NCBI RefSeq assembly: GCF_003001815.1
Contig: NZ_PVMZ01000030.1
Coordinates: forward strand, 1-64,000
Reading direction: 5' to 3'
DNA from: Actinoplanes italicus
GTDB taxonomy: Bacteria > Actinomycetota > Actinomycetes > Mycobacteriales > Micromonosporaceae
Length of the DNA: 64,000 nt
Part shown: piece after piece, positions 4,739-50,929 of the stretch
Layout of the letters: every line of letters begins with the position of its first letter
Numbering within the stretch: the stretch's first letter is position 1
The notes under the pieces: model-generated
Told to the model about the DNA's origin: nothing
Databases searched by the model: none
Seen by the model: the letters and a program-made list of their open reading frames with translations, nothing else
Made by a program: the position numbers and the translations under genes

Positions 4739-5380
4739 GTGCAGCTGATCGAGAACCCATGGGGTGTGACCGCTTTCGGGGCGGCGAGTGTCAAGTCGAA
4801 GCCGGATCTCGTTCGCGTGCGTTTCGAGGTGTCCCGGATTGAGCCGCAGCCAGCCGAGGCGTTCGCGCAGGTCAACGGGACGGTCCGAGAGGTCAGGCGG
4901 GTGCTGCGGGAGCACGGTGTCCCGGACTCAGCGGTGCAGCGGTCCGGGCTCGATCTGTCGGCGGCGTGGAACGGTTACGGCGCCGAGCGCAAGTTCCGGG
5001 GTCACGAGTGCACGGCCTCGTTCGTCGTCGAGTCGCGGAACCTGGACGACACCCAGGGGCTGCTCACCGAACTCATCGCGGCCGGTGTCACCGAGATCAA
5101 GTCCGTCGACTTCGACACCGTCACCAAGCCCGACCTGCGGGCGCGGGCCCGGCGGGAGGCGGTCGCCGTCGCCCGGCGCAAGGCTGAGCTGTACGCGGAG
5201 GCGGCCGGGGTCGTGCTCGGGCCGGTCGTGCACATCGAGGACGTCGACCCGGAGCGCCCGGGCGCCGAACGCTACCGGAGTCACGGTGGCGGCGGCGAGA
5301 CCTCGGCGGAGGACCTGGCGCCCGGCCAGGTCGTCGTCTCGGCCGCGGTGATCCTCGGTTTCGAGATCGCCGGGAACTAG
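4739..5380 (+). CDS. SIMPL (DUF541) domain protein
   Basis: A 213-aa protein with the SIMPL/DUF541 pattern: GAASVKSKPDLVRVRFEVS, then VREVRRVLREHGVPDSAVQRSGLDLSAAWN, and the family's LRARARREAVAVARRKAELYAEAAGV with VVHIEDV near the C-terminus. Most family members are exported, but this one has no signal peptide or lipobox. Its molecular role is not established. The GTG start has no ribosome site in the preceding bases and could be leaderless. A long hairpin overlaps its stop codon. Confidence 0.8.
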   Translation: MQLIENPWGVTAFGAASVKSKPDLVRVRFEVSRIEPQPAEAFAQVNGTVREVRRVLREHGVPDSAVQRSGLDLSAAWNGYGAERKFRGHECTASFVVESRNLDDTQGLLTELIAAGVTEIKSVDFDTVTKPDLRARARREAVAVARRKAELYAEAAGVVLGPVVHIEDVDPERPGAERYRSHGGGGETSAEDLAPGQVVVSAAVILGFEIAGN

Positions 5381-5447
5381 GGCCCGCACCGAAGTGGGGG
5401 TCGGAGCGAGGCGAGGTCCAGGTGTCCCCCACTTCGATGCAGGCCCT
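5379..5447 (+). terminator. Long hairpin terminator after the SIMPL gene
   Basis: Arms GAAGTGGGGG (5391-5400) and CCCCCACTTC (5426-5435) pair perfectly. An outer AGGGCC/GGCCCT pair (5379-5384, 5442-5447) encloses them. There is no T-tract, as is usual for GC-rich actinomycetes. Confidence 0.7.
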
Positions 5448-5545
5448 GAGCCTTCTCCGCGAATCGATCAGTCGGTGCCCCCGGCGGCCGGCGCTGTAGT
5501 GAAAATGTGTTGCCGAATCGGTCGGCGGGATGCTGGGCTCAGCGG

Positions 5546-6337
5546 ATGGATCATGATGAGGTGCTCGCCCTGTTCGACCGGCAGATGCGGCGGGAGGTCC
5601 GGGCCGAGGGCTCGGATTCCCGGATCGAACCGGATGGACCGGCGATCCGGCACGTCGCGACCGATCCGCTGGGGTGGAACGCGGTCATCTGGTCCGGCCT
5701 CGGCGAGTCCGATGCCGACGCGGTGATTGCCCGGCAGGTGCAGCGGTTCGCCGAGCTGGGCTTCGGCTTCGAATGGAAGCTCTACGCCTACGATCAGCCC
5801 GCTGACCTGCCGGAACGCCTGCTCGCCGCGGGCCTCGTCCCGGACGAGCAGGAGACGCTGATGGTCGGCGCGATCCGAGATCTCAAGGTCGAAGGTCAAC
5901 TTCCCGATGGCGTACGGATTGATCGCGTCACCGACGCGGCCGGTGTCGAGCTGATGGTCCAGGCGAGTGAGAAGGCGTTCGGTGAGAGCGCCGACTGGCT
6001 GCGGCACCGTGCGCTGGACCAGCTGGCCAACGATCCCGGCAACGCGTACCTGTTCGTGGCGATGGCCGGTGACGAGCCGGTGTCCGGCGCGCGGATGGAC
6101 GTCAACCACGGCACCGCCTTCGCCGGCCTGTGGGGTGGCGGCACAGCGCCGCAGTGGCGGGGCCGCGGCATCTACCGTGCCCTGGTCGCCGAACGGGCCC
6201 GGATCGCCGCCGACCTCGGCTACGAGTACCTGCAGGTGGACGCCTCCGACCAGAGCCGCCCGATCCTGGAGCGCCTGGGCTTCGCCGTGCTGACCACGAC
6301 CACCCCGTACAACATGCCCGCACCCCGCCAGCCGTAG
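5546..6337 (+). CDS. GNAT family N-acetyltransferase
   Basis: A 263-aa cytoplasmic protein. The C-terminal half carries the acetyl-CoA-binding motif A (PQWRGRGIYRALVAERARIAADLG), a following strand (YEYLQVDASDQS), and a typical end (ILERLGFAVLTTTTPYNM). The N-terminal 120 residues are GNAT-like but divergent, so the protein may hold two half-domains. The substrate cannot be read from sequence. The ATG at 5546 is preferred because the upstream in-frame codons encode low-quality sequence (LPNRSAGCWAQR). Confidence 0.85.
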   Translation: MDHDEVLALFDRQMRREVRAEGSDSRIEPDGPAIRHVATDPLGWNAVIWSGLGESDADAVIARQVQRFAELGFGFEWKLYAYDQPADLPERLLAAGLVPDEQETLMVGAIRDLKVEGQLPDGVRIDRVTDAAGVELMVQASEKAFGESADWLRHRALDQLANDPGNAYLFVAMAGDEPVSGARMDVNHGTAFAGLWGGGTAPQWRGRGIYRALVAERARIAADLGYEYLQVDASDQSRPILERLGFAVLTTTTPYNMPAPRQP

Positions 6338-6600
6338 CCCAGCCACAACACCCCACACCGCGCCAGCCGCCGCCCAGCCACAACACCCCACACCGCGCCA
6401 GCCGCCGCCCAGCCACAAAACCCACACCGCGCCAGCTGTCGCCCGGCCCACGAACCCCACCGGCCTCTGCCGCCGCCCAGCCCACGAGCCCCATGCCGCA
6501 ACCGGCCGCCGCCCAGCCCAGAAACCCCACCCGCGTCGGCCGCCGCCCAGCCCACAAACCCCACCCGCCCAGCCCGCAAACCCACCCCGCAGCCGGCCTG
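6338..6600. repeat. About 35-bp tandem repeat between a GNAT and a MOSC gene
   Basis: Starting directly after the GNAT stop codon, the unit agccgccgcccagccacaac plus accccacaccgcgcc recurs twice almost exactly, then in increasingly degenerate copies. Two convergent genes border the array (stops at 6337 and 6621). It holds no credible gene and no separate terminator. Confidence 0.85.
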
Positions 6601-47659: not shown

Positions 47660-47680
47660 GTTCGCATTGTATGCAAACAA
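47660..47680. promoter_or_regulatory. GntR operator-like palindrome
   Basis: TTCGCAT-TGT-ATGCAAA (47661-47677) has 6 of 7 arm bases paired. It abuts the GntR start codon, an autoregulatory position. It also lies about 40 bases before the divergent zinc-ribbon gene. Confidence 0.65.
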
Positions 47681-47715
47681 TCAAGGCAAGCGCCAGTTAT
47701 ATGCCGATCGATACG

Positions 47716-48534
47716 ATGGGTGACATGGTCTGTCCCACCTGCGGCTTGGACAACGACCCGGCCAGCACGCTGTGCGCCCGGTGCAACTCCGCGCTGACCC
47801 GGCAGACCGCGGTTCACCCGCCCGCACCGGTTCCGCCGCCGCCGAACCGGCGGACCATCCGGATCCCGCTGCTCGCCGGTGTCGGCGTGCTGGTCCTGCT
47901 CCTCGCGGTCGCCGCTGGGCTCTACCTGCGATCCGGCCGCGATGAACCGGATCCGCCTGTGCGGGCCGGCTCGTCCCTGACCGTGCCCACGACGGATCCG
48001 ACGACAGCAGTGACCCCGCCGGCGGCGGCAGCTACCACGCCGAGCGCGGTGACCACGCCGACCGGCTCGGCATCGCCGACGGCCCTCGCCGACCCGCGGG
48101 CGCAGGCTCGGGTCGTCGACGCGGTGCTGTCGGAGAGCGTCGCCAGCCGCCGCAAGCTCAACGTGGCGATCGAGCGGGTCGGCGACTGCGAGAACCTGTC
48201 CGGCGCGGTCGCGGACATCCGGGCCGTCGGCGTCGAGCGGCAGTCCCAGATGGACACCGTGCGCAACGCCGATCTGAGCGCCGTGTCCGGCGGCGAGACG
48301 CTGCGGGCCGGATTGATCGAGGCGCTGCGCTTCGCGTGGGAGGCCGACCAGGGCTTCCTGACCTGGGCCGAGCCCACCCTGCGGGGCGGATGCGACGCGA
48401 CCGACGAGGCCGGTTACGCCCGTGGCCGCAGCGCCTCGGACAGTGCGGGCACGGCGAAGCGCGCCTTCCTCAGGGAGTGGAACCCGGTCGCCCGGGCCAA
48501 CGGCCTGAAAACCCGGTCCGCCAACGACATCTGA
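47716..48534 (+). CDS. Zinc-ribbon, single-helix membrane protein
   Basis: A 272-aa protein with an N-terminal CPTC...CARC zinc ribbon, a Pro-rich link, one membrane helix (about 54-75, IPLLAGVGVLVLLLAVAAGLYL), a Thr/Pro/Ala-rich stalk and a helical extracellular domain of about 150 residues (RVVDAVLSESVASRRKLNVA, AIERVGDCENLS ...). Domain function is unknown. It is divergent from the GntR operon; the start ATG 47716 versus 47725 is uncertain. Confidence 0.7.
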   Translation: MGDMVCPTCGLDNDPASTLCARCNSALTRQTAVHPPAPVPPPPNRRTIRIPLLAGVGVLVLLLAVAAGLYLRSGRDEPDPPVRAGSSLTVPTTDPTTAVTPPAAAATTPSAVTTPTGSASPTALADPRAQARVVDAVLSESVASRRKLNVAIERVGDCENLSGAVADIRAVGVERQSQMDTVRNADLSAVSGGETLRAGLIEALRFAWEADQGFLTWAEPTLRGGCDATDEAGYARGRSASDSAGTAKRAFLREWNPVARANGLKTRSANDI

Positions 48535-48548
48535 CCCGGATCGACCGG

Positions 48549-48758
48549 CGACCCAGAACGGCCGGCGACCCAGAACGACCAGCGACCCAGAACGACCAGC
48601 GACCCAGAACGACCAGCGACCCAGAACGACCAGCGACCCAGAACGACCAGCGACCCAGAACGACCAGCGACCCAGAACGGCAGGCGACCCAGAACGACCA
48701 GCGACCCAGAACGACCAGCGACCCAGAACGGCTGGCTACCCAGAACGGCTGGCGGCTC
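48549..48758. repeat. 17-bp tandem repeat, about twelve copies
   Basis: The unit gacccagaacgaccagc repeats directly after the zinc-ribbon stop codon and runs up to the stop of the minus-strand small gene. The 17-bp unit disrupts frame, so it is a non-coding minisatellite. Confidence 0.95.
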
Positions 48759-49098
48759 AGAACGGCCAGTTCGCGGCCACGATGCCGGCGATCACACCGA
48801 CCGCCGCGAACGCCTCGGCGGCGGTCTGCACGGTGCCGAGTTTGCTGGTCAGCCCGTCGATCGCCTGCTGGATCCGGCCGCGATTCTCCTCGGTCGGGTG
48901 GGCCAGCGCCTGCTCGATGGCGGCGACGTCGGACTCGACGGCCGCCGGGTCCGGCGCGGTACGCCGGATCGTCTCCAACTGGCCGACGATGGCATCCCGC
49001 TCGTCGCCGTAGTGGTTGGTCTGGCTCACCGTGTTGTGGTCGCCGAAGACCTGTTGTCCACCGTGGAAGGTGAAGTTCTCGAAGCGCTGCTCAGCCAC
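48757..49098 (-). CDS. Small helical protein sharing a motif with its membrane neighbour
   Basis: A 113-aa protein of no recognised family. It begins with a Gly/Asn/Gln-rich motif (TFHGGQQVFGDHNTVSQTN at 10-28), followed by a charged helical segment (about 33-90: DAIVGQLETIRRTAPDPAAV, SDVAAIEQALAHPTEENRGR) and a hydrophobic end (AAEAFAAVGVIAGIVAANWPF). A GTG start is supported by AGGAGG five bases before. It overlaps the end of the upstream membrane-protein gene by 8 bases. The same motif is found near the C-terminus of that protein. Confidence 0.7.
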   Translation of the reverse strand: MAEQRFENFTFHGGQQVFGDHNTVSQTNHYGDERDAIVGQLETIRRTAPDPAAVESDVAAIEQALAHPTEENRGRIQQAIDGLTSKLGTVQTAAEAFAAVGVIAGIVAANWPF

Positions 49099-50851
49099 CG
49101 GCACCTCCTCTGGGCGTCTTCGGGATGTTCGTCTGGCTGATCCGGTTGTGGCTGCCGAAGACCTGCTGGCCGCCGTGGAACGTCTTCGTGCTGAAGTCGA
49201 AGGACATGCTGGCCGCCTTGGCGCGGAACTCGGTGGTGTTGACCCCGTGCTCGTCCAGAAAGTCCAGAATCGACTGTGTGACGGCCTTGTCCAGAAGCGC
49301 AATGTACTTCGCGGCGTCAAGATGGTGCATGTACTTGCCGGTCGGCCAGTCCGAGCCGTGCTCCCGGACACTGAGGTCGGCGCCGTAGTCGTAGAAGCGG
49401 AACTCGTCGGCGTCTCGCGCCGACTTGGACATCCGGCCCTGCAGGCGGATCACGTTCCAGCCGATCCGGGCCAGGTGGATCACGCCGAACAGGTTGTCAC
49501 GGAAGAAGTGCCGCAGCGTCGTCTCGGCGGCGTGCACCGGCACCCGCTCGGGTTTCAGGATGTCACCGAGCTGGTAGAGCCGTCGCACCTCGGGCATCAC
49601 GGTGGCGACGAACTCGGCGTAGAGCAACCCGCCCTCCAGCGCCAGATGGACGAAGGCGGTGACCGCGACGCCGCTGTCCTGCGCCGGCAGCACGGGCCTG
49701 CCCTGTGGGGTGCGGACCTCCTTGCCGTGGGCCGGGACGACCGCCCGCAGATAGTGCCGCATGCCGCCCTGCGGGCACGCCTCGATCGCGGCGAGGGTCT
49801 CCGGCGAGGCCATGGTGTACGGCGCCCGCGTGGCCGGGTCGACGAGAGGGTCGTCGGTGCGCCGCCACCCGTCGGCGGCCACGTACGGCACGACGAACAC
49901 GTTCGGGATCTTCTCGCCGTCGCCGAGTTGCTCCGACCGCAGGTCGAGGATCGCCTTCGATACCCGCCGGTTCAGCTCCGCCCCGTCGAGGTGGACGCGC
50001 TCCGGCACGGTCTCGCCCTCGGGCCGCTCGGCCGGGCCGAGGGTGATGGCGAACTCCCACCCGTGCTCGAACCAGCCCGCACCGAGGAACGGGTCCCGGT
50101 CGTGCACGGCGATGTTGCCCCGCTGCATCCCGGCGACGACGGCGAGCCGCCGTTCCACCCGCGGGTTGGTGCTGCGCGGTGCGGTCGTCGGGGTGCCCGG
50201 CGCCAGCTCGGTGGTGATGATGCCGAACACGTGCCGGCGCGACAGGAACAGCACCGCGAACATGGCCGAGGCCAGCAGCAACGGGTAGAGGAAGTCGAAG
50301 ACCGTCAGCCCGAAGCCGCCGCCATCGAACCCGCTCTCGCCGAAGTCGGATCCGTAGGTGCCGCTCCCGTAGTCGCTGAAGAGGAGCAGATCCTCGAGGT
50401 CGCCCATGCTCTGCAGCATCGAGAAGGCGACCGAGCAGAAGCCGACCACCACGATCGCTGCCACGATCGCCCACCGGACCTGCGGTGCCAGTGCCCGCAT
50501 CACCCGCGAGCGGACGGCCACCACGAACCCGCACAGCAGCAGCCAGCAGAACGTCGCGAGCGGGCTGAGGCAGTAGCCGACGATCAGTACGAACGTGACC
50601 AGCGCGTACCGCAGCACCAGCAGCCGCCGGGCCCGCAGGCTGTGCCGGACCACCGGATCGATGTCGAAGCCGTACGACGGTGGCACCGCCTTGCGCTCCG
50701 ACTCGACGACCTCCCTGATGACGTCGTCGGCAAACGTCACATCCACATAGGGCGCCGCGCACAGGTGCCGGGTGGTGGCGTTCATCGTCTCGGGCGGCCG
50801 GTACCCCGGGGTGCTCAACAACGGTTCGGACGGAACCTCCGGATCGACCAT
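49091..50851 (-). CDS. Large membrane protein of unknown function with C-terminal GGQQVFG motif
   Basis: A 586-aa protein. Residues 1-70 are soluble, then four helices (about 77-97, 99-115, 124-146, 185-205), with a Gly/Asp/Ser/Phe-rich loop (SDYGSGTYGSDFGESGFDGG) between the third and fourth. About 350 cytoplasmic residues follow with no domain I recognise (AFVHLALEGGLLYAEFVATV, ETTLRHFFRDNLFGVIHLAR). It ends TKTFHGGQQVFGSHNRISQTN plus a basic tail. GGAGGG lies five bases before ATG 50851. Translationally coupled to the small protein at 48757. Confidence 0.7.
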   Translation of the reverse strand: MVDPEVPSEPLLSTPGYRPPETMNATTRHLCAAPYVDVTFADDVIREVVESERKAVPPSYGFDIDPVVRHSLRARRLLVLRYALVTFVLIVGYCLSPLATFCWLLLCGFVVAVRSRVMRALAPQVRWAIVAAIVVVGFCSVAFSMLQSMGDLEDLLLFSDYGSGTYGSDFGESGFDGGGFGLTVFDFLYPLLLASAMFAVLFLSRRHVFGIITTELAPGTPTTAPRSTNPRVERRLAVVAGMQRGNIAVHDRDPFLGAGWFEHGWEFAITLGPAERPEGETVPERVHLDGAELNRRVSKAILDLRSEQLGDGEKIPNVFVVPYVAADGWRRTDDPLVDPATRAPYTMASPETLAAIEACPQGGMRHYLRAVVPAHGKEVRTPQGRPVLPAQDSGVAVTAFVHLALEGGLLYAEFVATVMPEVRRLYQLGDILKPERVPVHAAETTLRHFFRDNLFGVIHLARIGWNVIRLQGRMSKSARDADEFRFYDYGADLSVREHGSDWPTGKYMHHLDAAKYIALLDKAVTQSILDFLDEHGVNTTEFRAKAASMSFDFSTKTFHGGQQVFGSHNRISQTNIPKTPRGGAGG

Positions 50852-50929
50852 CGCCACCCTCCGATATGGAACGAGATGGCCAACGTATCGGCTCGCCGGG
50901 GCGGAAGGGGTCCGCCGAGCGGCTGATCG

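Follow-up and report, generated by a model that had tools for sequence, protein, structure and literature searches.

Two adjacent genes of Actinoplanes italicus encode a large membrane protein and a small helical protein that carry closely similar short motifs at their facing ends, and we found this arrangement to recur across Actinomycetes, with a motif that varies strongly between lineages and yet stays matched within each pair. The genes lie in a 64,000-nucleotide stretch (positions 1 to 64,000 of contig NZ_PVMZ01000030.1, RefSeq assembly GCF_003001815.1), the whole of which is referred to here as the window. The explanation we favor, and hold to be probable, is that the motif is homotypic and likely cross-beta (amyloid-like), such that a membrane sensor could nucleate a cytoplasmic effector. 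We propose cross-beta signaling because the motifs are rich in N, G, Q, and I, are matched at facing protein ends, and occur with partner classes resembling those of known amyloid signaling.

The large protein gene (49091-50857, minus strand), the product of which is our proposed sensor, has 588 codons from a GTG start, or the 586 given in a preliminary description of this DNA if translation begins at the ATG at 50851. The gene for the proposed effector (48757-49098, minus strand) encodes 113 residues from a GTG start closely preceded by AGGAGG, and the two genes overlap by 8 bases, in keeping with the coupling previously noted. The first motif copy, TFHGGQQVFGSHNRISQTN (49127-49183, minus strand), occupies residues 559-577 in the large protein tail, with 11 residues following it, and the second, TFHGGQQVFGDHNTVSQTN (49015-49071, minus strand), occupies residues 10-28 at the N-terminus of the small protein. 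The two are identical at 16 of 19 positions, C-terminal on one protein and N-terminal on the other, as first described, and their alignment score of 96 exceeded those of all 300 shuffled controls. When the motif was searched for in the 11.15 Mb genome, no place other than these two was returned (E<=10), and the large protein is present as a single copy. The aligned stretch of the window pair spans 23 columns with 17 identical residues, of which 12 use the same codon compared to 12.1 expected from codon usage. As a consequence of this agreement, the likeness is judged to be at the protein level, and a DNA-level repeat or recent duplication as the origin of the motifs in the window was rejected.

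To place the pair in a wider context we assembled regions from several samples. In the genus, small protein matches at E<=0.01 were present in 21 of 67 genomes (counting its own genome and at least one chance match), and in regions from the 20 other genomes with a match the large protein was detected in 19 and the small protein in 19. The exceptional regions in this set are L043, in which the large gene is a 110-residue fragment, L045, which is distant, and L046, a chance match lacking the pair. A profile of the large protein matched 50 of 397 genomes of the order, 48 of 394 of the class, and 12 of 296 of the phylum, with its own genome counted each time. Two of the 12 phylum-level genomes are from outside the class; one of these (L248) has the pair, and for the other (L247) only ~320 bases of contig remain beyond the gene. 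The large protein thus represents a family found across Actinomycetes that is unnamed in Pfam, NCBIfam, and PADLOC: neither it nor the small protein matched a named family at the curated cut-offs of Pfam and NCBIfam, and no anti-phage model in PADLOC matched either protein at E<=1, in line with the original remark that no named family was known for them. PHROGs returned nothing for either protein or for the zinc-ribbon protein described below, a sequence search of the PDB with the large protein gave nothing credible, phage records gave no match, and plasmid records gave one partial match (24.7% identity over 55% of the query).

For comparative analyses we used 101 regions, comprising the window, the 20 genus regions, and 80 chosen from among the order and class matches. 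Excluding L043, L046, and L190, which has no following open reading frame (ORF), left 98 loci. The last 60 residues of each large protein were compared with the heads of all following ORFs, and in 89 of the 98 loci the match beat all 300 shuffles. A matched pair was also identified in 17 of 17 loci with named hosts, including Actinoplanes, Winogradskya, and Paractinoplanes. Twelve of these were taken as already counted and five were additional (L054, L061, L062, L063, and L065, including those of Hamadaea tsunoensis and Catellatospora methionotrophica). Neighboring genes with matching end motifs are therefore repeatedly found together, which had been suggested as a check on the original observation, and neither a motif widespread without such pairing nor genes separated in all relatives was seen. 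By way of background, 70 of the 1210 other ORFs from these regions reached a score of 45, compared to 89 of 98 in the large protein family; many of the background frames are unlikely to be genes, and most of the high scorers listed are of low complexity.

The motifs differ greatly from pair to pair, for instance GVFIRGDNYGAAAGGPEASAV and GVFIGRDNHGAAAAGPHARAI at L127 and GVIQTGGLSVVGNQAVGAGARA and GIQQSGGVSQVGNQAVGPGAHA at L131, and the specificity of the match within pairs was evident when cognate and non-cognate combinations were scored alike. Over the 98 loci the mean cognate score was 73.2 versus 29.8 for non-cognate combinations, and when a single locus was retained from each of 60 clusters at 60% identity the means were 69.5 and 30.3, with none of 10,000 permutations exceeding 38.4 per pair. 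These two tests are the fair ones, as a separate motif comparison (42 of 51 for the cognate) is biased toward the cognate because the motifs had been cut from the cognate alignment. In 16 genomes that have two loci each, 29 of the 32 comparisons favored the cognate over the cross score, indicating that paralogous pairs mostly have distinct motifs, and the three failures (L144, L179, and L182) are all loci with no significant pair. A further batch of regions, tested with 200 shuffles each, had matched pairs in six of 10, and the remaining four consisted of three motif-less paralogs and one region cut by a contig end. The motif-less paralogs are from Streptomyces (L250-L252); their tails do not have the motif and in all three loci there is no following ORF with a matching head, so that motif and partner are both absent in this paralog.

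The preliminary description had raised the possibility that the small protein arose from a duplicated tail. In its broader form, this explanation attributes the link between tail and head to duplication of gene ends or to recurrent gene conversion, with no role in interaction. Over the 89 significant loci the same codon was used at 893 of 1398 identical residues compared to 801.5 expected, from which we conclude that the matching is mainly at the protein level. The excess over expectation nevertheless favors duplication in some measure, as does the near identity of the pairs over long stretches in L154, L176, and L194, and both lead us to conclude that homogenization of the motifs has at times occurred in places. 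L176 may provide a snapshot of that process: at 5447-5934 the head of the small gene has apparently been duplicated between the two genes, and the copy has a tail identical to that of the large protein. As the whole story, however, duplication is very improbable, because the likeness is mainly at the protein level and has been maintained in step over long divergence while the sequences themselves changed. In the window, codon agreement is no more than codon usage predicts and synonymous sites are as diverged as in unrelated genes. In addition, the three motif-less paralogs have no partner, and the motif can be found at either end of partner proteins that are unlike one another.

AlphaFold modeled the large protein at high confidence, with a predicted local distance difference test (pLDDT) score of 89 and a predicted template modeling score of 0.85. 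In the model an N-terminal segment is followed by four long helices in the membrane region (residues 66-97, 99-116, 125-160, and 186-217), an alpha/beta domain (about 240-558), and the motif-bearing tail, which bears out the previous reading of the sequence as a four-helix membrane protein. The loop at residues 116-126 has a net charge of +3 and that at 160-186 a net charge of -4, and these charges together with the hydropathy fit a topology in which both termini would be cytoplasmic. The tail has pLDDT values below 50 at residues 560-575 and 585-588, with the motif falling in this low-confidence region, and is predicted to be disordered. Foldseek matched the putative cytoplasmic domain at E>=0.06 only. 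Its best structural alignment by VIA-align was to the KA1 domain of SAD kinase (Z 8.1, rmsd 2.9, 91 residues aligned) and it also aligned with StART/PR-10 proteins (Z 7.3, rmsd 3.2-3.9, 123-128 residues aligned), both values being within the range of models that have no clear relatives. We consider these likenesses too weak to name the domain as KA1 or StART/PR-10, and take them as a lead, no more, toward lipid sensing by the large protein.

The small protein of the window was modeled as a four-helix bundle (helices at residues 30-47, 51-66, 70-87, and 91-110; pLDDT 74.5), with residues 1-27, which include the motif, having pLDDT values below 50. Its last helix is hydrophobic and ends in WPF, with a best 19-residue Kyte-Doolittle mean of 1.72. 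The helix bundle previously described for this protein is thus also predicted by the model and its hydrophobic end is borne out by the hydropathy, and the suggestion that this end inserts in the membrane is uncertain for the family as a whole, for reasons given below. The most hydrophobic stretch is near the C-terminus in 65 of 76 small partners. Most partners are short like the window protein, with the best-matching following ORF having fewer than 250 residues in 85 of the 98 loci. Four partners, from loci of genomes G682, G577, G638, and G659, reach the cut-off for the Pfam family DUF5955 (PF19380) and a fifth (G653) does so only when neighbors are read in frame; the window protein did not match this family in Pfam at E<=1.

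A second class of partner was identified in 12 of the 98 loci, in which the following ORF is of the PNP_UDP_1 type (nucleoside-phosphorylase fold). Pfam confirmed five of these, four of which were used to build the profile that identified the rest. The motif match was significant in 11 of the 12, the exception, L160, having p = 0.037. The partner at L142 (5536-6852, reverse complement) has the N-terminal motif, a PNP_UDP_1 domain, and a C-terminal bDLD3/Death-like domain, which we read as a motif-bearing effector that may be wired to a death-fold adaptor; bDLD3 was present in this one of 10 partners scanned. In four loci (L141, L147, L153, and L154) a third gene, lying upstream in the same orientation, encodes a PNP_UDP_1-type protein ending in the motif (in L141 as judged by profile only). 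When the motif of this third protein was scored against the small protein head, all 1000 shuffles fell below it in each of the four loci; scored against the large protein tail, it beat 1000 of 1000 in three and 992 of 1000 in L154. Other candidates for a third motif gene were rejected, as two matches in L194 were read as frame artefacts and one in L176 as the partner gene beside the duplicated head.

These proteins also bear on the nature of the contact between the motifs. In 51 representative pairs, the motifs are enriched relative to the large proteins in N (4.5-fold), G (2.2-fold), I (1.8-fold), and Q (1.7-fold), are depleted in L (0.18-fold), and have 10% charged residues versus 21%. It is feasible that such motifs act through specific homotypic or heterotypic docking, for instance as a small beta-solenoid or paired beta-hairpin, with a membrane scaffold stably holding its partner and no polymerization or templating. 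The covariation of the motifs and the insulation of the paralogous pairs would fit any specific motif-motif contact, and the likeness of the window motif to a published amyloid family is marginal. We nonetheless judge docking unlikely, as the motifs are of low confidence in both single-chain models and are N/G/Q-rich with few charges and little Leu, as are amyloid signaling motifs. In addition, the partner classes (four-helix and PNP_UDP) are those of fungal amyloid signalosomes, as far as the accessible text on these describes them, and the presence of the same motif on three different proteins of one locus fits a co-polymer. Of the three explanations initially offered for the shared motif (a common binding target, a joint fiber or beta-structure, and a duplicated tail) the joint fiber or beta-structure is the best supported.

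Part of the family has a different third component, which in the window is a gene for a zinc-ribbon membrane protein (47671-48534, plus strand) convergent to the small gene. The encoded protein has an N-terminal CxxC...CxxC segment, one hydrophobic stretch, a P/T-rich linker, and a C-terminal domain; its matches to Pfam zinc ribbons are weak and below the cut-off, and it is present as a single copy in the genome. The gap between the two convergent genes is filled by a 17-bp tandem repeat (48533-48769; 13.9 copies, 90% matches) that reaches the final codons of the small gene. A profile of the zinc-ribbon protein matched at E<=9e-24 in 26 of the 101 regions; 17 of these (including the window) had gone into its construction, and the other nine were new finds among the 80 non-genus regions. 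A further six regions had weak matches and in 69 the gene was not detected. In L125, L126, and L150 it immediately precedes the large gene and has the same orientation, and in L040 and L044 it is ~3.5 kb away. The original view of a two-gene system therefore holds in that the pair recurs, and needs amending for those loci in which a third component is present, either the zinc-ribbon membrane protein or one with the phosphorylase fold.

The position of the zinc-ribbon gene in L125, L126, and L150, and its presence in 26 regions, would be expected if both protein ends were to bind a common third target, such as this membrane protein, a nucleic acid, or a cell-wall ligand, with the motif serving as a ligand-binding tag. 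Matched motifs are common, however, among the 69 regions in which the gene was not detected, and a shared target predicts neither pair-specific motifs nor the difference between the two pairs of one genome. Binding of the same target by both proteins, as once suggested, explains the lineage-specific matching less well than does contact between the motifs, and we consider it improbable.

How might a motif of this kind function? We envisage that the large protein spans the membrane with both termini in the cytoplasm, and that a cue would alter its cytoplasmic domain or its oligomeric state. The clustered, disordered C-terminal motifs could then adopt a cross-beta (beta-arch, amyloid-like) form, onto which the N-terminal motif of the soluble partner would be templated, leading to clustering and activation of the partner. 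The window partner, with its predicted four-helix fold and hydrophobic final helix, would likely act at the membrane in a Bell/HeLo/MLKL-like manner, and in other lineages the activated partner would be a nucleoside-phosphorylase-fold protein. What the sequences themselves establish is the pairing of the genes, motifs that match and covary, distinct motifs in most paralogous pairs, two classes of partner, a third gene with the motif in four loci, and one paralog in which motif and partner are both missing. The topology, the disorder of the motifs, and the four-helix bundle are predictions from models and hydropathy, and the large protein is only a presumptive sensor of a presumed cue. It is by analogy with known amyloid signaling that we suggest cross-beta templating, the direction of the signal, an attack on the membrane or metabolism, and an output in defense or cell death.

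Several of our results weigh against this proposal. The shuffle test was non-significant in nine of the 98 loci (L166, L171, L144, L182, L188, L163, L160, L045, and L179), of which L166, L171, L160, and L045 have p between 0.02 and 0.05. The cognate was the single best match in only 57 of the 98 loci and 36 of the 60 clusters, because neighbors share motif types, and the cognate/non-cognate and cluster permutation tests were made without an explicit model of phylogeny. Only 20 of the 76 small partners reach a 19-residue hydropathy mean of at least 1.6, making membrane insertion uncertain for these partners as a family, and a Foldseek search with the small protein found nothing at E<=0.001 and no clear fold relative, the top rows being assorted helical bundles. 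Other points concern the BASS or Bell-NLR bacterial amyloid signalosomes, the founding paper on which is reportedly that of Dyrka et al. (2020). An NLR/STAND (NB-ARC/NACHT) module was absent from both window proteins in Pfam at E<=1. As a positive control, a published BASS3 peptide was searched in 384 genomes of the class and identified two loci, L259 and L260. Profile A4 compared with the Bell-type regions of these loci, which represent two Bell proteins only, gave no significant sequence likeness for the small protein. The window motif compared with five BASS3-type sequences gave p = 0.012 for the small protein and 0.060 for the large protein, which are marginal values, and p<=0.025 was reached by three of 48 other motif lineages, about the level of chance. 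Membership of the window motif in RHIM/BASS3 was accordingly not adopted, as the likeness is marginal only.

Taken further, our findings may point to bacterial amyloid signalosomes of a large class that is as yet undescribed, a proposition to which we give an even chance. Such systems would have the cross-beta motif nucleated by a membrane receptor instead of an NLR, a barcode-like motif for each locus that keeps several such pathways apart within one cell, and interchangeable effectors, either four-helix and membrane-active or of the nucleoside-phosphorylase fold, with both sometimes encoded in one operon. Amyloid signaling in microbes has been described with NLR receptors (in the accessible parts of PMC7889193, PMC8086366, and PMC9815663), and if the proposition is true then prion-like signal transfer would be a more general wiring principle that is able to start at the membrane. 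What decides the specificity of cross-seeding is a long-standing question about functional amyloids, and with dozens of naturally occurring motifs, paired in cognate or non-cognate combinations, there is a ready set for testing it.

The two loci returned by the BASS3 search allow a direct comparison with BASS systems. In L260 the C-terminal motif of a Bell-type protein faces the N-terminal motif of an apparent NLR start, so called for its P-loop-like sequence, that is cut by the contig end. At L259 (G653:C44, minus strand, ~5355-6425 in reverse-complement coordinates) there is again a Bell-type protein, this one with a BASS3-like motif at its C-terminus. The frame after it, of 232 residues, carries this motif close to its own N-terminus and also contains a hydrophobic stretch; it is not an obvious NLR, and the locus may perhaps be another case of an amyloid-type motif beside a membrane protein. 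Matched short motifs at the facing ends of neighboring gene products, diverse between pairs, are a mark of both fungal and bacterial amyloid signaling in the portions of the literature accessible to us (PMC7889193, PMC8086366). Judged against such descriptions, the actinomycete pairs resemble BASS/Bell-NLR systems in having adjacent or overlapping genes with a short motif at the facing product ends (seen in 89 of 98 loci), in motif families that are diverse between pairs and matched within them, in their occurrence in filamentous actinobacteria, and in the small helical partner with a hydrophobic segment. They differ in that a four-helix membrane protein stands in the place of the NLR and in the ends that bear the motif: in BASS the Bell protein has it at the C-terminus and the receptor at the N-terminus, whereas in the window pair the small protein has it at the N-terminus and the large protein at the C-terminus.

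There are parallels with other systems also, again as far as the available parts of the sources describe them. Fungal amyloid-motif effectors are pore-forming four-helix (HeLo-type) or PNP_UDP proteins (PMC9815663), which are the same two partner classes as are observed here, and the C-terminal motif on the PNP protein in four of our loci likewise has a counterpart in the fungal NLR systems, which include PUASM (PMC9815663). Unlike those systems, ours are bacterial, have no NLR and have a membrane protein as the putative sensor, and the likeness drawn here is one of architecture. In the EAD and bDLD/TRADD-N conflict systems the same adaptor is found on a core component and an effector of adjacent genes, and PNPase-type effectors occur (PMC7159879, PMC8195603); the L142 partner additionally has bDLD3. 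Their adaptors are domains and the cores described are NTPase systems (PMC7159879, PMC8195603), whereas here there is a short, apparently disordered motif and a membrane-protein core, and the window pair had no match in Pfam to EAD, TRADD-N, or bDLD domains. DUF5955 is similarly a small helical domain, and some partners reach its cut-off, in contrast to the window protein; its Streptomyces members that are readable in frame (e.g., L206 and L207) do not have the N-terminal motif.

The preliminary description had put the pair forward as an undescribed system, and we found no earlier description of motif pairs on a membrane protein and its partner in the open-licence literature, PMC12261475 having no bearing on the question. 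That claim requires tempering, however: since amyloid signalosomes are already known in which the products of neighboring genes share one short motif at their ends, the kind of system is not wholly new. What is new here, in our judgement, is the membrane protein in the place of the NLR together with the reversal of the ends on which the motifs are carried.

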